Shown: positions 16,600 to 60,471 of the stretch, one piece after another | Layout: each line of letters opens with the position of its first letter | Numbering within the stretch: position 1 is the stretch's first letter | NCBI RefSeq assembly: GCF_030412785.1 | Contig: NZ_CP125295.1 | Location: 2,914,001-2,978,000, forward strand | DNA: 64,000 nucleotides | DNA from: Paraburkholderia sabiae | GTDB lineage: Bacteria > Pseudomonadota > Gammaproteobacteria > Burkholderiales > Burkholderiaceae | Direction: 5' to 3' | Program-made: the position numbers and the translations under genes | Notes under the pieces: generated by a model | What the model saw: the letters and a program-made list of their open reading frames with translations, nothing else | What the model was told of the DNA's origin: nothing | The model's database searches: none

Positions 16600-17844
16600 A
16601 TGAGCACCACTAGCCAGAAAACGTCGATGGATACGGGCACACGCTCACCGCTAAAACGCACGGTCGGCTCGAACCAGGTCGGCATGCGGCAGTTCAACGA
16701 ACGTATCGTGCTGCAGGCGATCCGTCTGCATGGACCGTTGCCGAAGGCCGACGTGGGACGGCTCACGCGCCTGTCGATGCAGACCGTGTCGATGATCGTC
16801 GAACGGCTGATCGATGATGGTCTGCTCGAAAAACAGGCGCGCGTGCGCGGGCGCATCGGGCAGCCTTCCGTGCCCATCGCGTTGCGTGCGGAAGGCGCGT
16901 ATACGATCGGCGTGAAAGTCGGGCGGCGCAGCCTGGATGTACTCGCGATGGATTTTCTAGGCCGCGTGTGTTGTCGTGAAGTGCAGGAATATGCGTATCC
17001 CGATCCGCGCACGCTGTTCGCATCGCTCGACAGCAAGCTTGCGCGCATCAACGACGAGCTTGGCGCGCGGCGCGAGAAAGTAGTTGGCGTGGGTGTGGCG
17101 GCGCCGCTGTGGCTCGGCGGATGGCGCGATTTTCTCGGCGCACCGCCTGAGGCGCTCGACGCATGGAACGACATCGACATCCGCGCGCGCATTGCGTCGA
17201 TGACGGGCTTGCCCGTCGAGTTCGCCAAAGACACGACGGCTGCGTGCGCCGCGGAACTCGTGATGGGCCAGGGGCGTGGCATTCACAACTTTCTGTATCT
17301 GTTCGTTGGAACGTTCATCGGTGGCGGCCTGGTGATCGATGGGCGTTTGCATGGCGGGCCGCATGACAACGCCGGCGCGGTCGGCTCGATACCGATCATG
17401 AGCGGCAATGCGCGGCAGCCTGCGCGACAGTTGCTGCATGCGGCGTCGGGTTTTGTGCTCGAGAAGCTTTTCGTCGATGCGGGCGCGGATACAGCAGCCG
17501 CGCATGATCATCGTGCGTTGTCGGCCGATTTGTGGCGGATTACTGAGCAGTGGCTCGATAGTGCTTGCCCCGCGATTGCTGGGGCATTGACGAATGCCGC
17601 TGCTTTGCTTGATCTTGAGGCTGTTGTGATCGATGGGGAAGTTGATCGGCAACTCGTGCGGGAGATTATTCGGCGCACCGAACGTGTGCTCGATAAGTTT
17701 GAATGGGAAGGGCTTGTGAGGCCGCAATTGCTGGAAGGGACTATTGGCGCTGATGCGCGGGCTATGGGAGGCGCTATTTTGCCGTTGTATGCGCATTTTG
17801 CGCCTGTGCATGAGCTTTTTTTGAAGCCTGCCGTTGAATATTAG
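16600..17844 (+). CDS. ROK family regulator with N-terminal HTH
   Basis: A 414-residue protein: winged helix at about 28-85 (NERIVLQAIRLHGPLPKADV, SMQTVSMIVERLIDDGLL) followed by a ROK actin-like domain (GVGVAAP, TTAACAAELVMGQGRG, YLFVGTFIGGGLVIDGRL, HDNAGAVGSIPI). The ROK zinc-binding cysteine cluster is not visible. It is the last gene of the sugar ABC operon and probably its sugar-responsive repressor. Its 3' end has changed base use: of the last 67 sense codons (17641-17841) only seven end in C, against a C-rich wobble in the rest of the gene. This tail abuts the repeat at 17851. Confidence 0.88.
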   Translation: MSTTSQKTSMDTGTRSPLKRTVGSNQVGMRQFNERIVLQAIRLHGPLPKADVGRLTRLSMQTVSMIVERLIDDGLLEKQARVRGRIGQPSVPIALRAEGAYTIGVKVGRRSLDVLAMDFLGRVCCREVQEYAYPDPRTLFASLDSKLARINDELGARREKVVGVGVAAPLWLGGWRDFLGAPPEALDAWNDIDIRARIASMTGLPVEFAKDTTAACAAELVMGQGRGIHNFLYLFVGTFIGGGLVIDGRLHGGPHDNAGAVGSIPIMSGNARQPARQLLHAASGFVLEKLFVDAGADTAAAHDHRALSADLWRITEQWLDSACPAIAGALTNAAALLDLEAVVIDGEVDRQLVREIIRRTERVLDKFEWEGLVRPQLLEGTIGADARAMGGAILPLYAHFAPVHELFLKPAVEY

Positions 17845-17850
17845 GTTTTT

Positions 17851-18469
17851 GTCTGCGACGCTAGTCGCCATTTTTTGGTTTTTCGTTTTTGCTTTTTTGC
17901 GCTGGCATCCGCGTTTTCGTATAGGTACTTCTTGCGTTGCCCCTGTGCGGGGCGGCACCTACTTTTCTTTGCAGCGGCAAAGAAAAGTAGGCAAAAGAAA
18001 GCCGCTTCAAACCTCCGGTGCCCGCCAGGATAACGCCACGGCACACGGTGTTTGAGCTGTCGCGCAGCGACGCAAACACTTCGTAGAAAGCCCGCAGTCA
18101 GGCGCGCGCGGCGCGAAAGATGACATCCACCTGGGGCACATTCGGTCGGCGTGGTCTTGTCCGTTTGCCGTCGGCCCAATTGCGGCGGTATGTGCTCCAG
18201 ACTGTGTGTGGGGTTTTCGCGCAGTGCGCGGTTGACTACGGGCTTTCTACGGAGTGCGGACGTCGCTGCGCGACGGCTCAACTGCGGCATGGCGCGGCGC
18301 TATCCTGGCGGGCACCGGAGGTACAAAAGCGGCTTTCTTTTGCCTACTTTTCTTTGCCGCTGCAAAGAAAAGTAGGTGCCGCCCCGCACAGGGGCGACGC
18401 GTGAAGCACCAAAACGAAATCGCGGATGCCAGCGCAGCAAAAACCAAAAAAAGCAAAAAAGCAAAAAAA
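17851..18469. repeat. Composite palindromic element 1 (class A centre)
   Basis: A large inverted repeat filling the gap between two convergent stop codons. Left arm: GTCTGCGACGCTAGTCGCCA, a T-rich spacer, GCCCCTGTGCGGGGC, then a 15-bp stem with loop AGCG (17958-17991). The right arm repeats the stem in inverse (18343-18376, loop CGCT) and the GC-rich hairpin. Between them lie further inverted pairs (CCGGTGCCCGCCAGGAT; TAGAAAGCCCGCAGTCA) and a unique centre of about 120 bases (18113-18230). That centre is in the opposite orientation to elements 2 and 3. The right outer end lacks the GTCTGCGACG motif found at the left. Confidence 0.9.
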
Positions 18470-21400
18470 TCACCGCGCTACGGCAGTAGCACTAGAACCA
18501 TCGTCGGCAGACAACAACGGCTGCAACTCAGCAGCCATCGACTTGAGCAATTGCACAGCTAAAGCACTAGTAAAATCATACCGCTTGGCATAAGGCTCAT
18601 GCACCACCGCCGTCAGGGTGCCAAAAAACCGATCTCCGATAACAAAAACAAACGTCGCGGTGCGATTAACCTTCCGCGATTCGATGAGCCGACGCCCTTT
18701 GGCATAGATATTCAACCGCTGATCGCCAGTCCCGGTCTTGCCATAGACCTCAAGAGTCTGCCCGTTAGGAAACGTCATCCCACCAGCGAGCCGCCGGGCA
18801 GTCCCACCAGCAACAACATCCCGCAAAAGCATCTGCGTAACCCGCGCAATCTCCGGAGAAACAGCCTCGCTAGGCTGCGGCGTAGCACGCACGAACCGCG
18901 TTTCATACGGCGTCCCCTTCGCGAATTCGAGTTCAGAAAGACTCTGCGTCGGCGCCTGATTTCCCTTATTCGCAATCACCCCAATCAACTGCGCAAGCGC
19001 CGCAGGCCGATCACCCGATGCACCAATCGCTGCCGCATAAGAAGGCGTCAAATGCGCAAACGGATAGCCAAGCGCCTGCCACGAGCGAGCGATCGCATCG
19101 TAAGCATGCTGCTCGACCATGCGCCGAATACGACGATCCTGCGTCGCGTGATAGCGCGTCTTGAAGAGCCACTTGTACGAATCGGCACGCACGTCGCGGC
19201 TCGCGTCCATCACGTCGTTCGCACTTGCATCGGGATGCTCGCGCAGATAATCGACCAGCCACAATTCCAAAGGATGCACACTCGAAATGTACGCGCGGTC
19301 GTTCAAGTTAAATTTGTCGATGCCATATTTCGTGTAAAGCTGCGCGAGCGCATCGTCGGGTGGATTCGCTTTCGGCGTGTTCTTCAACGCGGCGCGCATC
19401 TGCTCGTTGAACCACGTCTGCGATCCATCTGGCCGCACGCTGCGTAATACGGTCGCCACTTTCGGCGGCGACTTGCGCACGCCGCGCAGCAGAATCGCGA
19501 GCATCTCATCCTGCGTCTTGCCGTGATATTTCGTGTAGAAACGATTCATGTACACACGGCTTTCCTGATCGGCGAAGCGCGTCAGGTACATCTTGCGCGT
19601 GTCGGGATCGTCGAGCCATTGCGACGACGGCCCCGAAGTCTTGATCGTTTCGTAGTGAACGATGTCGCGCATCATCCGCACGAACACGAGATTCACCGAA
19701 TGCTGGAAAGCCTGATGCACAGTGAGAATGCGCGAATTCTCGTCAGCTTCGAAGTTCGTGAAGGTCTGCGCGCCGCCACCCGTGAAGAACGTTTCGCCTG
19801 CATTCGCCGAGTACTTGCGCTCGACCGCTGCATCGAGCATCGCCGGAAGCGAGTGGTCTTTCGTGTGCATGAAGTAATCGACGGCCCAGCGTGTCAATGC
19901 ATCTTCGCGTTCGGGCTTCACGGCGCGCAGTTCATCGACGCTCATTTGCCCATAGCGTGCATGCAGTTCCGACATGATCTGCAGATACGTGATGATCGTA
20001 CGCAGCTTCGCCGTCGAGCCGAGATTCAAACGCGCACCCGAATTGATGTCGAATGGACGGTTGACGCTGTCCGTCTGCACACGCAAGAGGTTCGCGCCGT
20101 CGCGCTTCTCGAACAGCGTGAAGCTGAAAGCGATCTTCGACGGATCGTCTTTCGGTTGCAGCATATTGAAGCCATAAAGGCCCGCTGCCTGCGCGCCCTC
20201 TTTCGTCGTTGCGGCTGCCAGCCGGTCGCTGATGTCCTGCTGAACCTTGTTGTTCATCGTCGACGTGACGCGCAGATCGAGCCGGTCGAGGTCGTACAGA
20301 TTCGATACGCCAAGCGACGACAGCAGATGCGTGCGCAATGACGTCACCGCCTTGCGTTCGATAAACGAGCCTTCGGGCGGCGCGAGCTTCGAGCGCGTCA
20401 GCACGAGTTGTTGCGCGAGCCCGGCATCGCGCAGTTCCGGCGTGATCACGCCGTTCGCCGCCAGCAGCCGCAGATAGCTTTCCGTCAGAGCATTGAGTTC
20501 GTTGTTCTTGCGCAGCAGGAAATGCGACGGCCCGCGCTGCGCGATCATCAGCGACAGCACCTGACGGAACGCGAGGCCTTGTTCGGGGAGATTCTCGGGC
20601 GTCGGCGGCGCTTTCAGCACGCGGTTCGCTTCGGCGAAATCGCGGCCATACCACGCCGCCAGTCCGTCGCCGATACCGTTGACCTCGCCGATGCCCGGCT
20701 GCGCGGCGAGTGGCACCGAATTCAGATAGCGCACGACGATCTGCTCGCGCGCGGGCATCGTGCGCGGACCGTCGAGATACGCGCGCACCGACGCCGACGC
20801 GATCTGCCGCAGCTTTTCTTTCGGCGTCGCGGTGCGGCCGCCGGGCGAATGGCGGAACTTCTCGATCTGCGTCGCGAGCGTGCTGCCGCCGGGTTGCGCC
20901 TGGTTGTGGTTGAACACGCGCAGTCCCTGATCCATCAGCGCGCGGCTGAAACGCCCCCAGTCGATCGCGGGATTGCGGTTCGGCTCGTCCGTGTCGAGCA
21001 GATGACGGTCTTCGATAAACAGCAGCGCCGACACGACCAGCGGCGGCACCGACTCGAAATCGTCATACACGCGTGCGGGATATTGCCCGCCGAACAGGCG
21101 TGTGCCCGTCGAGTCGTACAGCATCAGGCCCGCCTGATCCTTTTCTTCGTAGGGAATGAAAAGGCCATCGTCAGCGAGCGACGCCATGCGTTCTGAATCG
21201 CGCGCCTGCGACGCCACGGCAAAACCGCGCTCTTTCAGGCGGCGCTCGAAGGCAGGCAGCAATGCGTAGCCGAGGCGGATGTCGTAGGGGCCGTCGGTGG
21301 GAAAGCGGATGTTGTCGCTCGGGCCTTCGGAAACGGTAAAGCCGACGTCGCGCGTGAGTTCGGACAGGTAGCGCGCCTGCAATCGCGACGTGTCCATTTC

Positions 21401-21877: not shown

Positions 21878-23155
21878 ATGCATAGCTACTACGAAGCGAC
21901 CGTCGAGCGGCCCGAGCGCCCTGCACTGGCCGGACAACTGAGCGCGAACGTCTGCATCGTCGGCGGCGGACTGGCGGGCCTGTCGACGGCGCTCGGACTA
22001 GCCGAACGCGGCGTGCGCGACATCGTGGTGATCGAAGCGAACCAGGTTGGCTACGGCGCGTCGGGGCGCAACGGCGGCTTCGTATTCGGCGGCTACAGCC
22101 TCGATTGCGCGGATCTGCTGCGGATTCTCGGCCCGACGCGGGCGCGCGAGCTGTACGCGCTGACCATCGAGGCCGTCGACCTGATGCGCGCGCGGATCCA
22201 GCGCTACGCGATCGCCTGCGACGCGACGGATGCGGGCGTGATCCTCGCGAACTGGTTCGACGATCCGGCGCGGCTGGACACCCAGCGCCGGCTGATGAAG
22301 GACGGGTTCGGCGTCGACTGGGAACCGCTCAGTGCCTCCGAGCTGCGTGCGCGCCTGAAGACCGCGCGCTATCACGGCGGACTCTTCGAGCGCAACGCGT
22401 TTCACTTTCATCCTTTGAAGTACGTGCTCGGTGTCGCACGCGCCGCCGAAGCGGCCGGCGTGCGGATCGTCGAACAGTCGCCTGTGACGTCGCTGCGCCG
22501 GCAAGGCGAAGGCTTCGTCGTCGGCACGGCGCGCGGGAAGGTCGAAGCCCGCCATGTCGTGATGGCGGGCGGCGGCTATGCGCGCAACGTGTATCCGCGC
22601 GTCGAACGTGCCGTGCTGCCCATCGCGACTTACGTGATGGCAACCGAGCCGCTCGGCGCGCGGCTCGCCGATGCGATCGACTGCCCTTCCGCCGTCTACG
22701 ACACGCGTTTCGCGTTCGACTACTACAGGCCGCTGCCCGACACGCGCATTCTGTGGGGCGGACGTATTTCGATTCTCGAGCGCGAGCCCGACGTGATAGC
22801 GCGGCTATTGCACCGGGATCTGCTGAAGGTGTATCCGCAATTGCGCGACGTGCGCATCGAGCACGCGTGGGGCGGCCTGATGAGTTACGCGCGGCACAAG
22901 ATGCCGCAGATCGGACAGAGCGCGGACGGCGTCTGGTACGCGGTCGGATTCGGCGGCCACGGCATGGCGCCGACGACCGTGTCGGGCGAACTGCTGGCGG
23001 CCGCGATCGCGGGCGAGCGCCCTGTGCCCGAAGCATTCGCGTCGTTCGGTCTCACGCACACGTTCGGCGCGCTGGGGCTCGCGGCCGCGCAGTTGACGTA
23101 CACCGCGATGCAGACGCGCGACGCACTCGCGGACCGTCCGCGGCGCACGGACTGA
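21878..23155 (+). CDS. FAD-dependent oxidoreductase, PuuB-like (gamma-glutamylputrescine oxidase type)
   Basis: A 425-residue DAO-family flavoprotein. The Rossmann motif is VCIVGGGLAGLSTALGLAE (about 25-43), followed by EANQVGYGASGRNGG, and the C-terminal FAD contact GFGGHGMAPTTVSGELLA. The N-terminal SYYEAT pattern and GASGRNGG resemble PuuB and related amine oxidases, which oxidise gamma-glutamylputrescine or similar amines. No other putrescine genes are adjacent, so the substrate is open. I use ATG 21878; a GTG at 21866 would add four residues, and neither has a good ribosome site. A TetR gene follows by 117 bases. Confidence 0.8.
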   Translation: MHSYYEATVERPERPALAGQLSANVCIVGGGLAGLSTALGLAERGVRDIVVIEANQVGYGASGRNGGFVFGGYSLDCADLLRILGPTRARELYALTIEAVDLMRARIQRYAIACDATDAGVILANWFDDPARLDTQRRLMKDGFGVDWEPLSASELRARLKTARYHGGLFERNAFHFHPLKYVLGVARAAEAAGVRIVEQSPVTSLRRQGEGFVVGTARGKVEARHVVMAGGGYARNVYPRVERAVLPIATYVMATEPLGARLADAIDCPSAVYDTRFAFDYYRPLPDTRILWGGRISILEREPDVIARLLHRDLLKVYPQLRDVRIEHAWGGLMSYARHKMPQIGQSADGVWYAVGFGGHGMAPTTVSGELLAAAIAGERPVPEAFASFGLTHTFGALGLAAAQLTYTAMQTRDALADRPRRTD

Positions 23156-23272
23156 ACGCATCGGATGGCCTGTGTGCAAGGTCCGCGCAACCATGCCGGA
23201 CGTGCCGCCAGGCCGCGCCGGCTGGGGATTTCGGCGTGCTAGAATGAACCGTCATCGCCGCCGGAATACACA

Positions 23273-23956
23273 ATGAAAAAGGGAAGCCGAGCAACCGTGC
23301 CCGAGCATATCGAGACCCCGAACGAGACCTCCGAACCACGGCGCAAATACGATCCCGAAGAAACGAAGCGCAACATCCTCGAGGTGGCTACGCAGGAGTT
23401 TTCGTCGATGGGATTGACGGGCGCGCGCGTCGACGCGATCGCTGAGCGCACCAATACCACGAAGCGCATGCTGTACTACTACTTCGGCAGCAAGGAGGGG
23501 TTGTACGAGGCCGTGCTCGAGAAGGTGTACGGCGACATTCGCGCGCTGGAACAGGACCTGAAGGTCAGTGACATGAGCCCGATCGATGGGCTGCGCAGTC
23601 TGGTCGAGTTTACGTTCGACTACCACGACAAGCATCGCGATTTCGTGCGGCTCGTGACGATTGAGAACATTCACGGCGCCAGGTACATCGAGCAGGTCAA
23701 GACCTTCAAGAACCGCAATGCGACGGTGATTCACACGATTGAAGATCTGCTAGCGAGGGGTGTTGCTTCGGGGGATTTTCGCGAGGATATCGATGCGATT
23801 GATCTGCACTTGCTGATCAGTTCGATGTGCTTTCACCGGATCGCGAACCGGCATACGTTTGGGACTGCGTTTGGGCGAGATCCTTCGCATTCGCGGTTGC
23901 GCGCGCGGCATCGCGCTATGATTGTTGATGCTACTTTGAGGTTTGTTAAGAAGTAG
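23273..23956 (+). CDS. TetR family transcriptional regulator
   Basis: A 227-residue regulator. HTH at about 30-80: RNILEVATQEFSSMGLTGAR, VDAIAERTNTTKRMLYYYFG. The C-terminal part resembles the TetR_C domain of RutR-like proteins. It lies downstream of, and may be co-transcribed with, the PuuB-like oxidase. The last 70 or so codons shift to T- and G-ending codons (TTT, GTT, ATT, GCT), as at the other genes that end at a composite repeat; element 2 starts seven bases after the stop. Confidence 0.88.
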   Translation: MKKGSRATVPEHIETPNETSEPRRKYDPEETKRNILEVATQEFSSMGLTGARVDAIAERTNTTKRMLYYYFGSKEGLYEAVLEKVYGDIRALEQDLKVSDMSPIDGLRSLVEFTFDYHDKHRDFVRLVTIENIHGARYIEQVKTFKNRNATVIHTIEDLLARGVASGDFREDIDAIDLHLLISSMCFHRIANRHTFGTAFGRDPSHSRLRARHRAMIVDATLRFVKK

Positions 23957-23962
23957 TTTTTT

Positions 23963-24586
23963 GTCTGCGACGCTAGTCGCCATTTTTTGTTTTTTTTGGT
24001 TTTTGCTGCGCTGGCATCCGCGATTTCGTTTTGGTGCTTCACGCGTTGCCCCTGTGCGGGGCGGCACCTACTTTTCTTTGCAGCGGCAAAGAAAAGTAGG
24101 CAAAAGAAAGCCGCTTTTGAACCTCCAGTGCCCGCCAGTATAGCGCCGCGCCATGCCGCAGTTGAGCTATCGCGCAGCGACGTCCGCACTCTGTAGAAAG
24201 CCCGCAGTCAACCGCGCACGGCGCGAAAACCCTACATAGTCCGGAACACATACCGCCGCAATCTGCCGACGGCAAATGCAAGAAAACGTGCTGACCTAAT
24301 GTGCCCGAAGTGAATGTCATCTTTCGCGCTGCGCGCGCGTGACTGCGGGCTTTCTACGGAGTGTTTGCGTCGCTGCGCGACAGCTCAAAGAACACATGCC
24401 GTGCCGTTATTCTGGCAGGCACCGGAGGTTTGAAGCGGCTTTCTTTTGCCTACTTTTCTTTGCCGCTGCAAAGAAAAGTAGGTGCCGCCCCGCACAGGGG
24501 CAACGCGTGAAGCACCGATACGAAATCGCGGATGCCAGCCAAAAGCCAAAAACAAAAAACGAAGAATGGCGACTAGCGTCGCAGAC
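23963..24586. repeat. Composite palindromic element 2 (class A centre, complete arms)
   Basis: The most complete copy. The outermost 22 bases are perfect inverted repeats: GTCTGCGACGCTAGTCGCCA... at 23963 and ...TGGCGACTAGCGTCGCAGAC ending at 24586. Arms are about 150-165 bases, with T-rich spacer on the left and A-rich on the right, the GC hairpin GCCCCTGTGCGGGGC, and the 15-bp stems at 24067-24100 and 24449-24482. The centre matches element 3 in orientation. The element occupies exactly the gap between two convergent stop codons. Confidence 0.92.
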
Positions 24587-24595
24587 AAAAAAACG

Positions 24596-27430
24596 CTACT
24601 GCTCAAGCGCCCTGAGCCGAGGCGCCAAAGCCGACGACAACAAAGCCTCCAACGACATAGGCCGCGCAAGATGATACCCCTGCCCATGCGCAGCACCAAT
24701 AGTGCGCAACAACTCAAGAGTAGCCTGATCCTCGATCCCTTCAGCGACGACCGTCAATTCCAGCGACTCCGCCATCCGCACAATGGCCCGCACAATCGCG
24801 CGACTCCGCGCACTCTGCGTCAACTCGAACACGAACGACTTATCGATCTTCAGCCCGCTAAACCGATACTGATGCACATAACTCAACGACGAAAACCCGG
24901 TGCCAAAATCGTCGAGCACCACGCACATGCCATTGTCGGCGAGACTCTGCATCGTATTGCGCGCCAAATCAGGCTCAGCCACAAGCGCACCCTCAGTCAG
25001 TTCAAGCGAGATGCGCGACGGATGCACGCCATAACGCTTCAACAATTCGAGTAGCTCATCCGCGAACTCGGGCCGGGTAATACTGTAGCTAGAGAGATTG
25101 ACCTGCACGGGCGGCCAGTCGACATGCTCCGGCTGCGCAAGAATCTCCGCCACGCGCGTCAGCATGTACATATCGAGCCGCCCAATCAGCTTCAAACCCT
25201 CCACGGCAGGCAGAAAACGCCCCGGCGCCCACACTTCGCCATTCGGCTGCTGCCAGCGAATCAACGCTTCCAGTGCAACAAGCTCGCCACTCGCAATATC
25301 GACGATAGGCTGAAAATACGGCACCAGTTCATCGTTGCGCTTGAGCGCATTGCGCAGCGCACCTTCCGTTTCGATCTGGTCCGACAGCTCGCGGCGCATC
25401 TGCTGGTTGAACACAGCAAAGCTGTCGCGCCCACGGTTCTTCACGCGATACATCGCGGCATCGGCATCACGCAACAAGTCAGCGGGCTCACGATGATGCG
25501 CACTGTCGGCGCTCACCACGCCGACGCTGCATGACGTGAACACGGTCTGCTCGCCGATGCTGAACGGTGTGTCGAACGCGGCCAGAATGCGCTCCGCCAG
25601 CGACAACACCGTTTGCAAGCTCGCGCCCGGCACGACCACGGCGAACTCGTCGCCGCCCAGTCGCGCAAGCAGATCGTCGCGCCGCAAACATTCGCGCAGT
25701 CGCCCCGCCACTTCGACGAGCAATGCATCGCCGAACAGATGGCCCAGGCTGTCGTTGACGACCTTGAAACGATCGAGGTCGATGAACAACACAGAAAGCG
25801 GCGCGCCGCGCCTGCTAAAACCCAGCCACGCTGCTTCGAGGCGCTCGTACAGATGCGAACGGTTCGGCAAGCCCGTCAGCGCATCGTGATAGTTCTCGTG
25901 CAACAAACGTGCGTTGGCGGCATCGAGTTCCTGCGTACGCGCCAGCACGCGCGCTTCGAGTTCGAGATTCGCCGCATGCTGCGCTTCGGCAACGCGCCGC
26001 CGCGACAACGCCGTATCGATGTGGCGCGACACGAAAGTCAGCAGTTCCTGATCGCGCCGGTCGTAACGCACGCTCGACGAATAGCTCTGCACGACAAGCA
26101 CGCCACGCACCACGCTGCCGTCGAAGAGCGGCACGCCGAGCCACGAGCGCAAGAGGATGTTCTCCGTGTCCAGCTTGATCTCGCCGGCTTCGACGAGTCG
26201 CACGGCATCGCGCGTATCGAGCAGACAGGGCACGCGCCGACGGATCACATACTCGGTGAGCCCTCGCTCGCCGCGGCGCGGCGCAGGTACTTCCTGCTGC
26301 GTTTCGTCGATGTAATACGGGAACGACACTTCCTCAGTCGCGGGGTCGAACAGCGCGACGTAGAAGTTCTTCGCATACAGCAGCCCGCCGACGATCTCGT
26401 GCAGGCTGCGAAAGAACTTGCCGATTTCGACCGATTGACTCGACAGCTCCGCGATTTCGAACAGCGCCGCCTGCAAATGCTGCGCGCGCTCGCGCTCTGC
26501 AATCTCCGCGCGCAACGTGTCGTTCAGGTGCGATAGCTCGGCCGTGCGGCGCGCGACTTCCGCTTCGAGTCCGACGCGGTGCAGAATGCGGTCGAGCGCC
26601 ATCGCCACGTGCCGCGCGACGACGAGAAAGAGCGCGCGATCCTCGGCGCTATAGATGCGCGACGAATCGTAGACCTGCATCGTCACCATGCCGAACACTT
26701 CGTCCGATGCGTTCTTCAGCGGTGCGCCCATCCAGAACTTCGGCCGGTGCCCGACGCAGTAAAAACGCCCCGTCGCGGCTGCTTCGATGATGCCCTTCTC
26801 GTCGATCAGCAGCGGTTGGCCCGTCGTCAGCACGTAACCCGTTAGCGACAGCCGCTCCGGGTTGACCATGTCCATGTGATTCGTATCGACGGCCTCGGTG
26901 TCGATCAGATCGATGTAATACGGATACGTCACCGCGCCCGTTTCGCGGTCGTAGAGTGCGAGGTAAAAGTTCTCAGCGTCGATCAGCGTGCCGAGCCGCT
27001 CGTGAATCGCCTGCAGGAATTCGCCGCGCTCGCTGATCGAGCTGGCGAGATACGCGATGTCGTACAGCACGCGTTGCACATTTTGCGCACGCATCAGCGC
27101 GTCGGCCTGCATCTGTTCGCCGATCACGCGGGCCAGCGCGGCGAAAGCGGGGTCCGACGCGCAGGAAGCCGGCGCGAGCAGCCAGCCGAGCGCGAGGTCG
27201 CTGCGGCCCGTCGGCCACGCGAACCAGCCGTATTCGACACACGCGTCGTGCAGCATGGCGGGCACGATCGAACGCGGCCAGTCGAACTGCGTCGCGCCTT
27301 CGCGTACGAGTTCGAGGTGCTGGCCCGCGCGATACCACGCCCAGGGCACGCCGGCAGCCTCCACCGCACGCGCCGCCCGGTCGATCGACTGCGCTCCCGT
27401 ACCGTCTGCCGACAGATCGGCATTCCACAT
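24596..27430 (-). CDS. GAF-GAF-GGDEF-EAL cyclic-di-GMP protein
   Basis: A 944-residue cytoplasmic protein with no transmembrane segment. Two GAF-like sensory domains (about 115-285 and 318-478), each containing a near-identical NFYLALYD / NFYVALFD strand and PYYID, then GGDEF (506-680) and EAL (690-935). The cyclase motif GGDEF is intact at 592-596 with a product-inhibition site RxxD (583-586) five residues before it. The phosphodiesterase motif EAL is intact at 721-723, with DDFGTGFSSL and AEGIED later. Both activities are possible; which dominates cannot be told. The C-terminal codons next to element 2 are T/G-ending. No adjacent partner gene. Confidence 0.9.
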   Translation of the reverse strand: MWNADLSADGTGAQSIDRAARAVEAAGVPWAWYRAGQHLELVREGATQFDWPRSIVPAMLHDACVEYGWFAWPTGRSDLALGWLLAPASCASDPAFAALARVIGEQMQADALMRAQNVQRVLYDIAYLASSISERGEFLQAIHERLGTLIDAENFYLALYDRETGAVTYPYYIDLIDTEAVDTNHMDMVNPERLSLTGYVLTTGQPLLIDEKGIIEAAATGRFYCVGHRPKFWMGAPLKNASDEVFGMVTMQVYDSSRIYSAEDRALFLVVARHVAMALDRILHRVGLEAEVARRTAELSHLNDTLRAEIAERERAQHLQAALFEIAELSSQSVEIGKFFRSLHEIVGGLLYAKNFYVALFDPATEEVSFPYYIDETQQEVPAPRRGERGLTEYVIRRRVPCLLDTRDAVRLVEAGEIKLDTENILLRSWLGVPLFDGSVVRGVLVVQSYSSSVRYDRRDQELLTFVSRHIDTALSRRRVAEAQHAANLELEARVLARTQELDAANARLLHENYHDALTGLPNRSHLYERLEAAWLGFSRRGAPLSVLFIDLDRFKVVNDSLGHLFGDALLVEVAGRLRECLRRDDLLARLGGDEFAVVVPGASLQTVLSLAERILAAFDTPFSIGEQTVFTSCSVGVVSADSAHHREPADLLRDADAAMYRVKNRGRDSFAVFNQQMRRELSDQIETEGALRNALKRNDELVPYFQPIVDIASGELVALEALIRWQQPNGEVWAPGRFLPAVEGLKLIGRLDMYMLTRVAEILAQPEHVDWPPVQVNLSSYSITRPEFADELLELLKRYGVHPSRISLELTEGALVAEPDLARNTMQSLADNGMCVVLDDFGTGFSSLSYVHQYRFSGLKIDKSFVFELTQSARSRAIVRAIVRMAESLELTVVAEGIEDQATLELLRTIGAAHGQGYHLARPMSLEALLSSALAPRLRALEQ

Positions 27431-42772: not shown

Positions 42773-42829
42773 GCTACGTCTCCATCATCGTTGAATGCTG
42801 TTGGGTCTCTGCCCGCTTCGAACCCGTCT

Positions 42830-42848
42830 GATATGTGATATATCGTAT
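42830..42848 (-). promoter_or_regulatory. Candidate oxalate-regulon operator, frc copy 1
   Basis: On the minus strand it reads ATACGATATATCACATATC, 17 of 19 bases identical to the site before the GntR gene at 48494. It lies 58-76 bases before the frc start. Confidence 0.55.
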
Positions 42849-42879
42849 TTACAGGCCGCTATTTGGGCAAGTTTTTTCG

Positions 42880-43664: not shown

Positions 43665-43666
43665 AC

Positions 43667-43894: not shown

Positions 43895-43989
43895 CGATAT
43901 TCTCCGTGCGATCGCCAGAAAGGCGATGAACACTGCGCGAAGCGCAAGGCGGTCGCTACATAACCGCCTTCTGGCAAAGAAACGCTGAA

Positions 43990-44421: not shown

Positions 44422-44542
44422 ATAGGGGCTCGTGTGTATTTGGGCTTCGCTGCCGCTCAGTTGAAAACAGCGCCACGCGGGCGCTGTTCTGCGGACTGCG
44501 CTGCTCTCCAGGCAGCGCAGTCCGGTCAAACGCCTGCTTCGA

Positions 44543-48494: not shown

Positions 48495-48611
48495 GATCGA
48501 CGTGTCTCCTCGATGTCGAAAACGGTGGTGGCCCGCTCGACGGACGCGCCGGATACGGCGTGGTCGTTCGGCCTTTCTGCGTGTCTGCAAATACCGCTTT
48601 GCATATGTGCA

Positions 48612-48630
48612 ATACTGTATATCACATATC
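48612..48630. promoter_or_regulatory. Candidate oxalate-regulon operator, GntR copy 1
   Basis: ATACTGTATATCACATATC, 118-136 bases before the GntR start. Shares the core GTATATC with sites before oxc, frc copy 1 (there GATATATC) and GntR copy 2. Confidence 0.55.
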
Positions 48631-48777
48631 TTATCGTCACCAATTCTCCTGCACCCTAGGTTTGCAGCGTTCTTTTCATAAATGATGATGAATAGTTTTC
48701 AAAGAAAACTTTAACTATCGTGAATTGATCGGTGCGCCTAAGCTGTCTTTACGCAACCGATTGAACTGGAGGGGATG

Positions 48778-49155
48778 ATGCGCAACGCACACGATCAACA
48801 CCGGACCGACTACGACCGCGCCGTCGAGACGCAGCTGTGCGCGTTCAATAGCGCATTCGCCGATCTTGGTTTGCGGTTCCGCTGGGACGCGGAGATGCTG
48901 ACGTCGCTCGCGACGATTGATGGCGAGCATGCTCGCGTTGTGGCTTATCTGAAGGCGCATCAGGCGCATTTGCTGAATGCGTATAGCGCTGAGTTTTTGT
49001 GTGCTGCGATTCTGGCCGGGAAAAGTGCGCGTACTTCTGATGTGCTGCCTACTCGGGTTGTTGCATCTGGCGATGCGCGTTCTTCTTCTGGTTCGGTGTT
49101 CTCTCTTTCGCAGTACTTTTCTGATGATGCAGTGCCTGCACTTGCAGGTGCCTGA
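48778..49155 (+). CDS. Small protein of unknown function
   Basis: A 125-residue soluble protein (TDYDRAVETQLCAFNSAFAD, LRFRWDAEMLTSLATIDGEH, ARVVAYLKAHQAHLLNAYSA). I use the second of two adjacent ATGs (48778) because GGAGGGG is only two bases before the first. Helical and probably cytoplasmic; family not recognised. The last 60 codons are strongly T/G-ending (GTT, TCT, GCT), and the Ser-rich tail may be a product of that drift. Element 3 starts nine bases after its stop. Confidence 0.6.
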   Translation: MRNAHDQHRTDYDRAVETQLCAFNSAFADLGLRFRWDAEMLTSLATIDGEHARVVAYLKAHQAHLLNAYSAEFLCAAILAGKSARTSDVLPTRVVASGDARSSSGSVFSLSQYFSDDAVPALAGA

Positions 49156-49163
49156 CGGTTTTT

Positions 49164-49745
49164 TCTACGACGCTAGTCGCCATTCTGGTCTTTTGGCTTT
49201 TTGCTGCGCTGGCGTCCGCGATTTCGTATTGGTGCTTCACGCGTCGCCCCTGTGCGGGGCGGCACCTACTTTTCTTTGCAGCGGCAAAGAAAAGTAGGCA
49301 AAAGAAAGCCGCTTTTGTACCTCCGGTGCCCGCCAGGATAGCGCTTCGGCATGCCGCAGTTGAGCCGTCGCGCAGCGACGTCCGCACTCCGTAGAAAGCC
49401 CGCAGTCAACCGCGCATTGCGCGAAAACCCCACACACAGTCTGGAACACATAACGCCGCAATTGGGCCGACGGCAAACGGACAAGACCAAGCCGACCGAA
49501 TGTGCCCCAGGTGGATGTCATCTTTCGCGCTGCGCGCGCCTGACTGCGGGCTTTCTACGGAGTGTTGGCGTCGCTGCGCGACAGCTCAAGGAACGTGCGC
49601 CGTGGCGTTATTCTGGCGGGCACCGGAGGTTTGAAGCGGCTTTCTTTTGCCTACTTTTCTTTGCCGCTGCAAAGAAAAGTAGGTGCCGCCCCGCACAGGG
49701 GCGACGCATGAAGTACAGATACGAAATCGCGGATGCCAGCAAAAA
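49164..49745. repeat. Composite palindromic element 3 (class A centre)
   Basis: Begins TCTACGACGCTAGTCGCCAT, has the 15-bp stems at 49265-49298 and 49650-49683 with the GC hairpins outside them, the inner inverted pairs TAGAAAGCCCGCAGTCA and GGTGCCCGCCAGGAT, and the same centre as element 2. It ends at GATGCCAGCAAAAAG without the outermost right motif. It fills the gap between the convergent small gene and oxlT. Confidence 0.9.
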
Positions 49746-49751
49746 GAACTA

Positions 49752-51083
49752 TTACTCGCCAGAACTGGCACTAAGCCCAGAAGCACGAGCCGAGGAAGAA
49801 GCGGCGCTTGCCGACGCCCCCTCCTCGATCCACCTAGCCCGCATCGGCGCAAGCACGAACTTGGCCGAAACACCGGCCGCAATCGTAATCACAGCCGACA
49901 CGATAAACACGAGATTCCACCCGCCGGCGGCGGACAAAACCGAAGCCAGCGGCACGAGCAAAGCAGCCGTCCCCTTAGCGGTATACAAAGTCCCGGCATT
50001 AGAAGCAGCAAACTTGCTACCGAACGTATCGGCACAAATCGCCGGAAAGATCGAAAAGATCTCACCCCAGAACAGGAAGATCAAAGCGGCGAACGTCATG
50101 AACGCATAAGGGTTCTGCCCATACTGCATCATGCCCAGCAGTGCGAGCCCTTCGCCGATAAAAATCGCGAACATCGTATTCTCGCGGCCGATCTTGTCCG
50201 AGATGAAGCCGCACAGCGGACGCGTAAAGCCGTTGCAGATGTTGTCGATCGACAGCGTCATTGTCAGCAGCGGCAGCGTCATGCCGAACATCGTCATCGG
50301 CAACTTGGCGAGGCCCCAGTCCTTCGCGATCGGACCGATTTGCGCCGTCGCCATCAGGCCGCCCGCCGCAACCGCGACGAACGACACATAGATCACCCAG
50401 AAGACGGGCGTCTTGATCATCTGCCCCGGCGTGTAGTCGACCTTGCTCACCGCGAACTTGCGCTTTACGCCCGCAGTCGAGCGCGCCACCGGCTTGTGCA
50501 GCAACAGCGCCAGCACGAAGATAGCGACGCCCTGCAGAATGCCGAAGAACAGGAACGTATGCTCATAACCCGTGCGCGTAATCATGTTCGCGATCGGAAT
50601 CACCGTCACGGCTGCGCCCGCGCCGAAGCCCGCAGCTGTCAGGCCTGCGGCAAGACCGCGCTTGTCCGGGAACCACTTCAGCGCGTTGCCCACGCACGTG
50701 CCGTACACGCCGCCCGCGCCAATGCCCGCCACGACAGAGCCGATGTACAGCTCGGGCAACGTCGTCGCATGCGAGAACATCATCCACGCGAGACCCGCGC
50801 AGATCGCGCCGCCCGCCACGACAGGACGCGGACCGAAACGGTCGACGAGCCATCCTTCGATCGGGACCAGCCATGTCTCCGTGAGAATGAAGATCGAGAA
50901 CGCAAGCTGAATCGATGCTTCGCCCCAGTGATGCCGCGCGTTCATCGGCGCGACGAAGAGCGTCCAGGCGTATTGCAGGTTAGCGACCAGCGCCATGCAC
51001 AGCATGCCGATCACCAGCTGACACCAACGGTTTGAGAGCATGCCGCTCCCCGTCGCCTGTCGGGTGTTTCCATTCATGAGCAT
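49752..51083 (-). CDS. oxlT: Oxalate/formate antiporter
   Basis: A 443-residue 12-helix MFS protein of the OxlT family, which exchanges external oxalate for internal formate in the inner membrane. The two basic residues of the OxlT substrate pocket have clear counterparts: R288 (NGFTRPLCGF) and K370 (TAKGTAALLVP). Other family stretches are LQYAWTLFVAPM and GVYGTCVGNALKWFPDKRGL. Translation may start at the ATG 51083 or two codons later at 51077, where GGAG is nine bases away. The Ser/Ala-rich C-terminal 30 residues are T/G-codon-rich and abut element 3. Confidence 0.92.
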   Translation of the reverse strand: MLMNGNTRQATGSGMLSNRWCQLVIGMLCMALVANLQYAWTLFVAPMNARHHWGEASIQLAFSIFILTETWLVPIEGWLVDRFGPRPVVAGGAICAGLAWMMFSHATTLPELYIGSVVAGIGAGGVYGTCVGNALKWFPDKRGLAAGLTAAGFGAGAAVTVIPIANMITRTGYEHTFLFFGILQGVAIFVLALLLHKPVARSTAGVKRKFAVSKVDYTPGQMIKTPVFWVIYVSFVAVAAGGLMATAQIGPIAKDWGLAKLPMTMFGMTLPLLTMTLSIDNICNGFTRPLCGFISDKIGRENTMFAIFIGEGLALLGMMQYGQNPYAFMTFAALIFLFWGEIFSIFPAICADTFGSKFAASNAGTLYTAKGTAALLVPLASVLSAAGGWNLVFIVSAVITIAAGVSAKFVLAPMRARWIEEGASASAASSSARASGLSASSGE

Positions 51084-55055: not shown

Positions 55056-55071
55056 CGCTTCGTCGACGCCT

Positions 55072-57020: not shown

Positions 57021-57033
57021 CGAGGACACATCC

Positions 57034-57598: not shown

Positions 57599-59062
57599 GT
57601 GAACAATCCGCTGATTTTCGGCTTTGCGCTCGTCGCATTCGATGTCGTGATCTGGCGTTGCGCTGTACCCACCAACGAAGTCGCGCGGCTGCTGGTGCGC
57701 CTGTGCATCTACGCCGCCTTTAGCGCGCTACTGTTCAGTTCCGGTCTGAGCCCCTTCTCGCAGGCGCCGTATGCGGATTCGAGGCCGCTGCATCTGCTCG
57801 GTCAGGTGCTGGAAATCATCTGGTGGCTGATGGGCTCGCGCCTGCTCAGCATGGCGCTCGACACGCTGCTGCTGCCGAAAAGGTGGCGTCGTCAACGGCT
57901 CTTTCAGGACGTGTTCGGCGCACTCGTGTTTCTCGCCGCCGTCGTCGCCGCGCTTGGCTTCGTGCTCGAATTGCCCGTGCGTGGACTCGTCGCGACATCG
58001 GGCGCGCTCGCAATCGTGCTCGGTCTCGCGATCCAGAGCACGCTGAGCGATGTGTTCGCCGGTATCGTGATCAACACGACGGAGCCGTATCACATCGGCA
58101 ACTGGGTCATCATCGACGGCGTCGAGGGCAAGGTGCTGGAGATGAACTGGCGCGCGACGCATCTGCTGACTTCGCAGGGCAACATCGTGATCGTGCCGAA
58201 CGCCGTCGCGGCGAAGGCGAAGATCACGAACACCAGCCGGCCGCCGGAGCTTCACGGCATCACGCTCATGCTCGAGATCACGCCCGAAGCGCGTCCGAGC
58301 ACGGTGATCGCCGCGCTCGAAGCAGCGCTCGCGGGCGTGCGAGCGGTGATCGCCGACCCTGCGCCGTATGCGATCGTGAAGCGGACCAGCGCCAACGCCG
58401 TGATCTACGAAGCGACGGCGTACGTCGACGATACGAGCAAGAAGCTCGCGGTCACCAACGAGCTCTATGACCTGTGCTACCGGCAGCTCGAGGCAGCGGG
58501 CGTTCCGCTGCGGCCGCTCGGCGCCGGCTATGCAGCGCCCGCGCCTGCGCTGGAAGCCGATCCGCGCATGAACCTGCTGCGGCGCGTGGACATCTTTGCT
58601 GCGTTGACGCCGGATGAGTTGAAGGGGCTTTCGCCGCTGCTATCGCGACGCGACTACGAACGCGGCGACACGGTGGTGACGCCGGACAAGGTGCTCGACC
58701 AGTTGACGATCGTCGATTCGGGCGCGCTGTCTGTCGTGGCAGAGGATGCATCCGGTCCTGTCGAGGTGACCCGGCTGGGTCCCGGTGATGCTCTTGGCGA
58801 AGCCGGTCTGCTGGCGGGTATGCCGGCGCGTGTGACCATTACCGCGCTGACCGCGGCGACTGTGTTTCAGTTGAAGAAGGATGATCTGACGCCGTTGTTG
58901 AAGGATAAGCCGGATGTGGCCCGGCTCATGTGCCAGATGTTGTCGAGGAGGAGCGATACGCTCAATAAGCTCGGGACGCCGACGCCTGTTGCTCAGTCGG
59001 AGCAGTCGGTGTTTCAATGGTTACTGGATGGGATGAAGAAGTTGCATGATTTGACGTTTTGA
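57599..59062 (+). CDS. MscS-family channel with C-terminal cyclic-nucleotide-binding-like domain
   Basis: A 487-residue inner-membrane protein. About four to five helices; the pore helix reads TSGALAIVLGLAIQSTLSDV, followed by the beta domain (VIIDGVEGKVLEMNWRATHL, NIVIVPNAV). A cNMP-binding fold follows at about 328-440 (LGPGDALGEAGLLAGMPARV), a fusion known in some MscS paralogues. GTG 57599 has GGAG five bases upstream; an ATG at 57557 would add 14 residues. The 3' end (58880-59062) shifts to T/G-ending codons beside element 5. Confidence 0.88.
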   Translation: MNNPLIFGFALVAFDVVIWRCAVPTNEVARLLVRLCIYAAFSALLFSSGLSPFSQAPYADSRPLHLLGQVLEIIWWLMGSRLLSMALDTLLLPKRWRRQRLFQDVFGALVFLAAVVAALGFVLELPVRGLVATSGALAIVLGLAIQSTLSDVFAGIVINTTEPYHIGNWVIIDGVEGKVLEMNWRATHLLTSQGNIVIVPNAVAAKAKITNTSRPPELHGITLMLEITPEARPSTVIAALEAALAGVRAVIADPAPYAIVKRTSANAVIYEATAYVDDTSKKLAVTNELYDLCYRQLEAAGVPLRPLGAGYAAPAPALEADPRMNLLRRVDIFAALTPDELKGLSPLLSRRDYERGDTVVTPDKVLDQLTIVDSGALSVVAEDASGPVEVTRLGPGDALGEAGLLAGMPARVTITALTAATVFQLKKDDLTPLLKDKPDVARLMCQMLSRRSDTLNKLGTPTPVAQSEQSVFQWLLDGMKKLHDLTF

Positions 59063-59070
59063 TTTTTTTT

Positions 59071-59757
59071 GTCTGCGACGCTAGTCGCCATGTTCGTTTT
59101 TTGTTTTTTGCTGCGCTGGCATCCGCGATTTCACGTCGGTATTCATGCGTCGCCCCTGTGCGGGGCGGCACCTACTTTTCTTTGCAGCGGCAAAGAAAAG
59201 TAGGCAAAAGAAAGCCGCTCACACCGCCAATCCTTGTGTTTGCCTGCGGGCCCCCAACCGGTCCCGCACTCCAAACGGCGCCGCACTTTTTCACGCCCGT
59301 TGCCAGCGCTGCTGGATTTGCATCCCCCACTTCACACTCCCGCGTCACGCGCCGCGTTACCCGGCAGTCCACGGCCGCCCAGGTGGCAAACTGTGTGTAG
59401 GCCGTCGCGCCGGAAATGCACCACTTCGGACTGAAAAGCAGGATCGGTGTCGTAGGATCGCGAACGCGTAAGGTGCGACAACCTACACACAGTTTGCCAC
59501 CTGGGCGGCGTGGGCCATTCGCTGCCGCTGGCTGCGCTACGGGTGACTGGAGTGGGTGATGCATTTGTTCGATGCGTTGGCAACGCGGGTAAGCTAGTGT
59601 GATGCCGTGTGGAGTGCGGGACCGGTTGAGGGCCCGCAGGCGATGACTAGCATTGGCGGTGTGAGCCGCTTTCTTTGCTTACTTTCTTTGCGGCGGCAAA
59701 GAAAGTAAGTGCCGCCCCGCACAGGGGCAACGCATGAACGACGAAGGCAAATCGCGG
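59071..59757. repeat. Composite palindromic element 5 (class B centre)
   Basis: Starts GTCTGCGACGCTAGTCGCCA. Left stem 59171-59204 is the standard one. The right stem (59678-59709) is a variant, CTTACTTTCTTTGC paired perfectly with GCAAAGAAAGTAAG. Inner inverted pairs: CCGCCAAT / ATTGGCGG, GCCTGCGGGCCC / GGGCCCGCAGGC, ACCGGTCCCGCACTCCA and its inverse, and a 23-bp perfect pair at about 59380-59402 and 59483-59505. The right end reads into the start of the ABC ATPase gene. Confidence 0.9.
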
Positions 59758-60471
59758 ATGCCAGCGAAGAACACACCAGTAAAACCACCATCACTAGAAT
59801 GCCGCTCGCTAAGCAAAAGATACCGGGCAAACAGAACAGTCATAGACAGACTGGACCTGAAGCTCGCCGCAGGCGAATTCATAGCCATCATGGGCGACTC
59901 AGGCGTCGGCAAATCGACGCTACTGAACCTGATAGCGGGCCTGGACCGCGCCGACTCAGGCGATGTCCTGATCGACGGCACGCCGATCTCCACCCTCGAT
60001 GACGACGCCGCAACGCGCCTGCGTCGCCAGAAGCTCGGCTTCGTGTTCCAGGCCTTCCACGTGCTCCCACATCTGACGCTCGCGCAAAACGTCGCGCTGC
60101 CGCTGCTGCTGAACGGCCTCGCGCCGCAACGCGCCCACGACATGCTCATGGCCGTCGGTCTCGAAGGCCGCGACGACGACTTGCCGCGTCAGTTGTCGGG
60201 CGGTGAACTGCAACGCGTCGCGATCGCCCGCGCGCTCGTGCATCGTCCGACGCTGATCCTCGCCGACGAGCCCACCGGCAATCTCGACCCCGACACCGCC
60301 CATGAAGTGCTCGCGCTGCTGCGCGAAGAAACCAAAGCGAACGGCGCGGCAACGATGATGGTCACGCACTCGGAAGCCGCCGCCGCCTTCGCCGATCGCG
60401 TGCTCGTGCTCAGCGACGGCAAGCTGCACGCCGCAGACATCTCGCATGCACTGCGCCCTTCGCATGAATGA
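59734..60471 (+). CDS. LolD/AttE-like ABC transporter ATP-binding protein
   Basis: A 245-residue ATPase: Walker A MGDSGVGKST (53-62), signature QLSGGELQRV, Walker B LILADEPTGNLD. These match the MacB/LolD/FtsE group that powers FtsX-like permeases. It is the first gene of a three-gene operon with a fused permease and a lipocalin-like protein, as in AttEFGH. The start codon lies inside the outer end of element 5; a second ATG at 59758 (MPAKNTP) may be the original start. None of the 48 codons from 59758 ends in T, and rare A-ending codons (AGA, CTA, ATA) are frequent. Confidence 0.88.
   Translation: MNDEGKSRMPAKNTPVKPPSLECRSLSKRYRANRTVIDRLDLKLAAGEFIAIMGDSGVGKSTLLNLIAGLDRADSGDVLIDGTPISTLDDDAATRLRRQKLGFVFQAFHVLPHLTLAQNVALPLLLNGLAPQRAHDMLMAVGLEGRDDDLPRQLSGGELQRVAIARALVHRPTLILADEPTGNLDPDTAHEVLALLREETKANGAATMMVTHSEAAAAFADRVLVLSDGKLHAADISHALRPSHE

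Follow-up and report, generated by a model that had tools for sequence, protein, structure and literature searches.

Strand-asymmetric composition halos flank long palindromic repeats in Paraburkholderia sabiae and may reflect recurrent two-ended breaks

The window, a 64,000-nt stretch of the Paraburkholderia sabiae genome, contains five copies of a long interrupted palindrome, numbered 1 to 5 by position along the sequence (Table 1). Each is bounded by two inverted copies of a conserved end that reads, by eye, as GTAG followed by a GCCCC-GCACA-GGGGC hairpin. We take these ends to be REP-sequence-like, following the GTAG rule. The stretch 17934-18400, which holds element 1, is predicted to fold as DNA into a single hairpin (-235 kcal/mol, z -26) whose basal stem has 74 pairs without interruption, one of them G-T. 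Most copies are long-armed and about 450-590 nt in length; the gap from end motif to end motif is mostly 411-419 nt in this genome and larger in most of the relatives examined. In all seven long copies an insertion sequence lies within the loop of one end hairpin, and in the one copy tested it belongs to the IS481 family. Rfam at gathering thresholds matched nothing in the window, and megablast found no match to the element in phage records.

Table 1. Elements and flanking halos, in window positions; base values are fractions on the strand reading outward from the element.
Feature	Positions	Strand	Description
Element 1	17939..18395	.	457 nt from outer end motif to outer end motif; motif pair
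Element 1 left halo	16940..17938	+	3' half of ROK-like gene; C>T on + strand
Element 1 right halo	18396..19395	-	G>A on + strand, equal to C>T on - strand
Element 2	24048..24501	.	454 nt; motif pair
Element 2 left halo	23048..24047	+	A 0.24, T 0.21, C 0.31, G 0.24 at 100-600 nt; weak
Element 2 right halo	24502..25501	-	A 0.27, T 0.16, C 0.34, G 0.23
Element 3	43014..43570	.	557 nt; motif pair
Element 3 left halo	42014..43013	+	A 0.25, T 0.17, C 0.29, G 0.29; partial
Element 3 right halo	43571..44570	-	A 0.28, T 0.16, C 0.31, G 0.25
Element 4	49246..49702	.	457 nt; motif pair
Element 4 left halo	48246..49245	+	A 0.29, T 0.18, C 0.28, G 0.25
Element 4 right halo	49703..50702	-	A 0.27, T 0.15, C 0.32, G 0.25
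Element 5	59152..59728	.	577 nt; motif pair; flanked by two + strand genes
Element 5 left halo	58152..59151	+	A 0.22, T 0.17, C 0.36, G 0.25
Element 5 right halo	59729..60728	-	A 0.19, T 0.16, C 0.37, G 0.29 at 100-600 nt

On the outward-reading strand, A+C was in excess at 100-600 nt on all ten sides of the five elements. An earlier note on this DNA had drawn attention to two gene ends, and our recounts agree with it: among the final 67 sense codons of the gene that it called ROK-like, 7 end in C, and the 48 codons that start at 59758 end 22 times in A, 17 times in C, 9 times in G and never in T. To the right of element 1, comparison of the genome with the element-free G083 and G042 gave 56 G>A and 3 A>G differences. 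On the left of element 3, where the called flanking gene points away, A exceeds T but C equals G. The right halo of element 5 includes the 5' end of a + strand gene, presumably ABC-transporter-like from its Walker A motif, and is weak past the first codons. For this gene a codon-usage caller predicted a start at 59890, skipping the in-frame ATGs at 59734 and 59758.

Exact end motifs number 103 + 100 in the genome. We sampled the first 100 of these places and took further copies from 40 scored matches, which yielded 81 motif pairs from 60 stretches (three of them controls) and the window. The elements favour gene 3' ends, and 38 of the 81 lie between convergent genes. Across the 81 copies, A rises and G falls on the outward-reading strand, equally on the left and the right; the gradient is symmetric over the 162 sides, and AT skew decays with a length of 403 ± 30 nt. 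Both skews were present on 151 of 161 flank sides compared to 402 of 1644 background windows; the right side of C1:5426583, whose flanking gene lies beyond the stretch analysed so that it has no gene class, was dropped from this count and from the decay fit. The A+C-G-T excess at 100-600 nt averaged 0.182 over the 81 elements (background window sd 0.062), and none of 20,000 resampled means exceeded 0.021. A 72-nt copy at C1:1708576 likewise has halos, and the footprint was seen again in six other genomes, one of them from another genus. The innermost ~100 nt of flank is partly derived from the element and is therefore no evidence of mutation in host DNA. These results confirm a real and strong strand-asymmetric composition shift centred on the element.

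Recurrent two-ended breaks at the palindrome, combined with damage on 3'-ended single strands, are the probable, though far from certain, explanation of these halos. The long interrupted palindrome would extrude as a giant hairpin or cruciform, and occasional cutting of the hairpin would produce a two-ended double-strand break. Resection of the 5' ends, convergence of repair forks on the break, or both, would leave the strands whose 3' ends point toward the element (top on the left, bottom on the right) single-stranded, most often close by. Damage to the exposed strand, chiefly deamination of cytosine accompanied by some G>T, C>G and A>G, would be fixed once the complement was resynthesised, and the long-term result would be a symmetric, C-depleted and T-rich gradient with an AT-skew decay of about 400 nt. 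Breakage, the nuclease responsible, resection and the damage chemistry are each our inference from the pattern. Because the break is two-ended, this model accounts for two-sided symmetry without a replication effect. Several observations count against it. RecBCD usually degrades kilobases as far as a Chi site, a tract usually longer than the 400-nt decay. The effect in coding sequence is about twofold weaker in genes that point away from the element, where the simplest form of the model predicts no difference. Halo strength on the left and right is uncorrelated between elements (rho 0.04, n=81), although two sides sharing one break rate or age would be expected to vary together. Four results given below also weigh against the model: the lack of an SbcD above the cut-off, the halo-less element C1:439689, the shared-branch bias at element 1 and the raised A>G and A>C near elements.

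The earlier note had proposed resection from palindromes cut by SbcCD. Its strand rule, the centring on the element and the predicted direction held, and the shift appears after insertion, but gene direction does matter in coding sequence and SbcCD as the cutter was not supported as stated. The best match in a profile search for SbcD (TIGR00619) fell below the cut-off in this genome, and a divergent SbcD-like protein adjoins an SMC/AAA-like ORF. SbcD scored above the cut-off in 10 of the 97 genus genomes searched; one of these, G015, has a similar footprint, and element copy number did not differ between genomes with and without it (10 versus 87, p=0.77), which together speak against dependence on SbcCD. 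RecB was above the cut-off in 8/8 genomes tested. It is unlikely, yet deserves real weight, that an enzyme dedicated to nicking or cutting, either a transposase or a REP-type transposase, acts at the end hairpins, that the damage then follows in the same way, and that the mutations are by-products of programmed mobility. The conserved GTAG and hairpin ends, the insertions in the end-hairpin loops of the seven long copies and the halos at the 72-nt copy would suit such an enzyme. However, the sole Y1-type protein found in the genome scored 51.9 bits, below the RAYT cut-off of 80, and lacks the HUH histidines by eye. The Y1 family was matched in 96 of 97 genomes whatever the copy number of the element, including genomes without the motif, which speaks against RAYT as the mover.

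Recurrent breakage was weighed against damage by transcription, in which genes running toward the element would stall at the hairpin and form R-loops, with deamination of the coding strand. The location of many elements between convergent genes fits this distinctly unlikely alternative, as does the roughly twofold stronger effect in the coding sequence of toward-pointing genes; moreover, the halo-less C1:439689, present in G000 and G020 and without a shift on either side against G083, lies between divergent genes. Against it, noncoding flanks shifted about equally beside toward- and away-pointing genes, and both skews were present on 40 of 47 away-pointing sides, so transcription is unlikely to be the sole cause. 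In away-pointing genes the shift keeps the same strand sense, although transcripts reading through from the element should, by inference, expose the opposite strand. The earlier claim that the shift follows DNA strand stands, with gene direction modulating its strength inside coding sequence. An equal skew at convergent gene ends that have no element, which the earlier note would have taken as refutation, was not seen. At four-fold sites in convergent genes lying more than 4 kb from any paired element, outward A over the final 100 nt was 0.10 (n=2209 sites), a minor rise over about 0.08 deeper in the gene. Near element end motifs it reached 0.42 at distances up to 100 nt (n=243) and 0.38 between 100 and 200 nt (n=1663).

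The halo strand pattern was independent of the sign of gene direction and of replication direction. Palindromes trouble replication forks, and arrest of a fork at the hairpin could expose the lagging-strand template on the arrival side, where the strand so predicted is indeed the correct one. This is nevertheless very unlikely to be the source of the halos, since AT skew did not differ between fork-arrival and exit sides (paired n=71, p=0.38; same gene class n=37, p=0.98). The arrival/exit difference of 0.05 in CG skew matched the background replication skew in sign and, roughly, in size.

The onset of the skew was examined by comparing occupied with empty sites in synteny, 12 sides at six sites. 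Outward differences within 1 kb numbered 287 G>A and 55 A>G, against 150 and 145 on the same sides from 1.5 kb onward. The confinement of the G>A excess to the vicinity of occupied sites indicates that the element precedes the skew. This count omits C1:2963246 R and C1:2957014 L, which align to a non-syntenic and possibly paralogous G020 stretch (84 and 93 per cent identity); with them, the 14 sides gave G>A 338 and A>G 69 near, and 152 and 149 far. Also omitted were C1:499466 L, where G083 has an insert between flank and element, and the lone approximate motif matches G083 173353 and G020 198614; 2 of 16 sides had no homologue. Two of these sites, G083 109609 and 117897, are not clean empty sites, since their empty allele carries several kilobases of other DNA between the flanks. 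Base composition at empty orthologous sites was ordinary at most sites compared, leaving out the misframed rows L095, L099 and L100, the apparently misframed row L114 and the motif matches G083 173353, G020 198614 and G020 196043. In a rooted test on the left halo of element 1, the polarised changes on the inward strand within 1.5 kb that were common to both element-bearing genomes, G000 and G020, were 21 C>T and 1 G>A; an element-free control pair gave 3:1. Changes private to G000 were 19 C>T and 6 G>A within 1.5 kb and 25 and 6 beyond, and those private to G020 were 12:4 and 11:3. As the G000-private changes have no near-specific asymmetry, the bias at element 1 lies mainly on the shared branch.

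Continuing bias was assessed on 19 of 60 sides, those of paired elements present in every one of the three or four genomes compared. Within 1 kb, outward G>A was raised 1.32x (p=0.0015) and outward C>A 2.60x (p=1.5e-10), whereas C>T (0.95x) and G>T (1.29x, p=0.28) showed no excess and T>C was 0.64x. A>G (1.77x) and A>C (2.82x) were also raised near elements, so that old flanks seem close to equilibrium (G>A 225, A>G 210); we provisionally attribute the raised A>N to a site-class effect. Besides the C>T expected from the cytosine deamination that had been proposed, further changes on that strand (G>T, C>G and A>G) contribute to the shift. The fraction of inward C>T by 5' neighbour was A 0.20, T 0.15, C 0.11 and G 0.075, with codon constraint still in and C1:2963246 R and C1:2957014 L included. 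The absence of a TC peak in these fractions speaks against a TC-specific deaminase of the APOBEC or DddA kind. A single episode of mutagenesis at insertion, through error-prone insertion or repair synthesis, would agree with the sharp difference between occupied and empty sites and with the shared-branch bias at element 1, but is highly improbable given that outward G>A and C>A are still in excess on the 19 all-carrier sides while C>T and G>T are not. Insertion into already skewed gene ends, or selection on flanking mRNA, would fit the preference for gene 3' ends, but has a negligible chance of being correct because empty sites are mostly ordinary, the differences run in one direction, and away-pointing and noncoding flanks shift too.

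Strand asymmetry on the element, its onset and continuation, its independence of replication and its recurrence elsewhere were all computed here. In mitochondrial deamination gradients and replication skew, C>T accompanies A>G on the longer-exposed strand in a gradient with distance. The element halo differs in being centred on a dispersed repeat, two-sided and, in its AT skew, independent of replication direction. Further likenesses are found in three other systems. In yeast break-resection clusters, the mutated bases of the top strand are C to the left of the break and G to its right (PMC6786661). The element flanks have the same arrangement, with C changes on the top strand left of one centre and G changes right of it: under bidirectional resection in yeast, too, the top strand is affected on the left and the bottom strand on the right, with a single C-to-G switch at the centre. 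The yeast clusters arose as a burst in one experiment, under a strong deaminase or mutagen, and span kilobases or more, whereas the element halos are evolutionary compositional gradients at natural bacterial repeats, decaying over about 400 nt. In Escherichia coli, cutting of a hairpin on the lagging-strand template produces a two-ended break (PMC4125073). That 246-bp site is likewise a long interrupted palindrome in a RecB-bearing background, but it is engineered and cut by canonical SbcCD, whereas the elements are natural copies in a genome with no SbcD above the cut-off, and their two-sided footprint suggests the break. REPIN/RAYT repeats (PMC8049555) are also non-coding, intergenic and of high copy number, with two inverted GTAG-hairpin ends, but have a short spacer, unlike the long-armed element with no convincing RAYT. 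No mutation halo at REPIN/RAYT, and no account of such a halo in general, was found in the literature searched, which excludes most subscription papers.

We regard it as an even bet that dispersed natural palindromes act as recurrent fragile sites through a route with no need for canonical SbcCD, each with a standing two-sided mutator halo of ~1 kb that recodes the ends of neighbouring genes, and that each genome thereby keeps a trace, at about a hundred sites, of how often breaks occur and how far resection runs. If so, ordinary genome sequences would hold a readable record of chromosome breakage, of its place, the strand exposed and the distance. The elements would provide a natural replicated system for break-associated mutagenesis in wild bacteria, with as many as about two hundred motif copies on each strand of a genome, scores of genomes, and occupied and empty alleles. 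The repeat would also bias how neighbouring genes evolve and use codons, with consequences for phylogenetics, selection tests and gene calling nearby.

The window (C1:2914001-2978000, replicon coordinates) lies within a 9.9 Mb genome containing 103 + 100 exact end motifs of the family that includes its five palindromes, and 81 elements were paired from 60 sequence stretches and the window. Most measured ~455 nt between outer end motifs, and the shortest copy was 72 nt. Seven exceeded 1.3 kb and carried a ~1.28 kb IS in an end-hairpin loop, in six cases at the same place in the right-end hairpin (418-422 nt from the left edge) and in the seventh within the sole remaining hairpin. In the one copy tested, the transposase matched the IS481 family over the cut-off. 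The recurrent placement suggests that IS insert preferentially in the palindrome. The DNA of element 1, located 3' of a ROK-like gene, folded as one hairpin at -235 kcal/mol, against a mean of -102 (sd 5) for shuffled sequence, with a basal stem of 74 uninterrupted pairs, one of them G-T. Beyond the end motif the sequence was A-rich and frequently included a further small hairpin (GCGACTAGCGTCGC or one-base variants), whose 51 occurrences in the 1.25 Mb examined were all ≤600 nt from an end motif. Part of the first ~100 nt outward is consequently element-derived, and this stretch is not readable as mutated host DNA. Of 97 genus genomes searched, 81 carried the end motif, with exact copies per strand ranging from 0 to 245 across the set; a sample of 150 family genomes covering 25 genera showed it in 3 of those genera; matching plasmid records came from Paraburkholderia (7) and Caballeronia (2).

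Coordinates of IS-bearing elements and other individual features
Feature	Position	Stretch	Strand
IS-bearing long element	C1:105543	L031:9044-10781	
IS-bearing long element	C1:217350		
IS-bearing long element	C1:434443		
IS-bearing long element	C1:965234		
IS-bearing long element	C1:1799348		
IS-bearing long element	C1:2414952		
IS-bearing long element	C1:5248456		
Site with no shift on either side	C1:439689		
Unpaired end motif	C1:736291		
Unpaired end motif	C1:1973724		
SbcD-like metallophosphoesterase adjoining SMC/AAA-like ORF	C1:2444501-2447385	L204:1-2885	-
REP-transposase-like protein	C1:6231433-6232140	L202:933-1640	-
A/C-rich 5' end of ABC-transporter-like gene	window 59734-59889		

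The base-composition shift flanking the elements (halo) is almost certainly real, element-caused, strand-symmetric and mutational. The codon counts of the earlier note at the flanking genes were exact on recount. On the outward strand, which reads away from the element, A fell from 0.46-0.50 at 50-75 nt to 0.19 at 1-1.5 kb and G rose from about 0.18 to 0.31, left and right alike; the AT-skew decay length was 403 ± 30 nt. At four-fold sites of toward-pointing genes, outward A was 0.42 at <100 nt from the element compared to 0.067 at 2-8 kb. AT and CG skews were both positive on 151 of 161 flank sides compared to 402 of 1644 background windows. Gene 3' ends had a mean A+C-G-T value of 0.201 beside elements (n=94) and 0.019 elsewhere (n=328, p=2e-43). 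The shift was tied to the element rather than to convergent gene ends per se: in the last 100 nt of genes >4 kb from a paired element, outward A at four-fold sites was 0.09 for all 3' ends and only 0.10 for convergent ones. Both skews were also found in other genomes (G020, 32/32 sides; G083, 35/36; G042, 17/18; G095, 14/14; G015, 14/14), including one of a different genus (G211, 15/16).

Element 1 is present in the source genome (G000) and G020 and absent from the readable-frame orthologues of G083, G042, G001, G043 and G087. In the ROK-like gene, the fraction of the final 100 codons that end in C was 0.12 and 0.16 with the element compared to 0.37-0.42 in these five, and 0.21-0.39 in more distant element-free relatives (misframed L114 set aside). 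Polarised against eight element-free relatives and 20 outgroups, the changes common to G000 and G020 on the inward (complementary) strand at <1.5 kb comprised 21 C>T and 1 G>A, compared to 3 and 1 in an element-free control pair. Occupied and empty states were compared at six syntenic sites (12 sides; outward strand, state without > state with, not rooted). At <1 kb, the counts were G>A:A>G 287:55, C>A:A>C 95:52, G>C:C>G 136:73, T>C:C>T 119:67 and G>T:T>G 18:31; from 1.5 kb outward they were 150:145, 38:42, 144:114, 156:142 and 43:36, respectively. With two further non-syntenic sides, G>A:A>G was 338:69 near and 152:149 far. These unrooted counts were one-directional near the element and balanced far off; one site showed no shift. 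On the inward strand, the pattern reads as mainly C>T, also G>T, C>G and A>G, suggestive of several damage kinds on one strand. Collectively, the sequence comparisons indicate that the element comes first and the halo after. Three ROK-like 3' ends (L113, L101, L112) showed partial T enrichment (0.26, 0.19 and 0.20 of the final 100 third positions); a scan tolerating up to 4 mismatches detected no end motif in the ~1.5 kb downstream, and these gene ends are possibly relics of lost elements.

The proposal that the effect follows DNA strand and not gene direction was upheld in noncoding flanks and only partly in coding sequence. The genes flanking the 81 elements were convergent at 38, tandem at 38 (one with its right-hand gene beyond the fetched stretch) and divergent at 5. 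Outward A in noncoding flanks was 0.376 (toward) and 0.341 (away) at 100-150 nt, and 0.296 and 0.290 at 150-200 nt; 40 of 47 away-pointing sides had both skews. In coding sequence at 200-300 nt, however, it was 0.13-0.16 (away) compared to 0.32 (toward), of the same sign and ~twofold weaker. PMC12725619 reports that mutation rates in E. coli are lower at the 5' ends of genes; this may contribute, and template-strand transcription-coupled repair may do so too. The position of dnaA (C1:547) and the GC skew of segments served to assign fork direction. In 71 paired comparisons, the side where the fork arrives did not differ in AT skew from the side where it exits (p=0.38); the CG-skew difference was 0.05, matching background replication skew in sign and rough size. 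The C1 block at 0.43-0.75 Mb corresponds to replicon C1 in G020, G083 and G042, and the 2.77-2.94 Mb block to a different replicon in each (C3, C2 and C2, respectively); together with GC-skew sign changes, this suggests that two replicons were fused in the source genome or its assembly.

Top-strand C changes on the left and bottom-strand C changes on the right, irrespective of fork direction, fit the geometry of a two-ended break at the element with 3'-ended single strands on both sides. Passages of a yeast study (PMC6786661) describe C-left, G-right order as a mark of bidirectional resection. In E. coli, a hairpin formed on the lagging-strand template is cleaved into a two-ended break (PMC4125073). 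We consider a break/resection origin the most likely one, with somewhat better than even confidence; the break itself, its resection and the underlying chemistry are inferences. Against it stand the weaker effect in away-pointing genes, a 400 nt decay that is short for RecBCD processing, one element without a halo, uncorrelated left and right strengths (rho 0.04, n=81), and private changes at element 1 that lack clear near-specific asymmetry (C>T:G>A near and far, 19:6 and 25:6 in G000; 12:4 and 11:3 in G020). RecB exceeded the cut-off in all 8 genomes tested. Repair forks converging on the break could alternatively give the same geometry. SbcCD, which the earlier note had named as cutter, is not supported in that form: SbcD exceeded the cut-off in 10 of 97 genomes, the source genome not among them, the footprint was similar in SbcD-bearing G015, and genomes with and without such an SbcD hit were alike in element copy number (p=0.77). 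In the source genome, a divergent SbcD-like metallophosphoesterase adjoins an SMC/AAA-like ORF, judged by eye and extending beyond the fetched stretch; they are a candidate divergent Mre11-Rad50-like pair. A single-copy REP-transposase-like protein fell under the RAYT cut-off and had no HUH histidines visible in its sequence. Matches to the Y1 family occurred in 96 of 97 genus genomes, element-bearing or not.

The bias continues, as assessed on 19 sides with the element in all of three or four compared genomes. Private outward G>A was enriched 1.32-fold (p=0.0015) at <1 kb relative to >1.5 kb, and C>A 2.60-fold (p=1.5e-10). Neither C>T (0.95) nor G>T (1.29, p=0.28) was raised, and T>C was reduced to 0.64 (p=0.0045). 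Increases were also seen for A>G (1.77) and A>C (2.82), so that the numbers of G>A (225) and A>G (210) changes have come into balance. Since A near elements should be mostly at synonymous sites, the raised A>N could reflect site class plus approach to equilibrium. In well-aligned columns, the total private substitution rate increased from ~0.024 to 0.037 per site approaching the element.

Because the 5' end of the ABC-transporter-like gene is A/C-rich, a codon-usage gene caller placed its start at 59890, and gene annotation beside elements may be systematically off. Of two unpaired end motifs, one marks an element shrunk to a small GC-rich hairpin whose halo is still moderate. The other belongs to an element whose left end is gone; its right halo remains strong and its left flank is not T-rich. 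Such relic elements could reveal which part of the element is needed.
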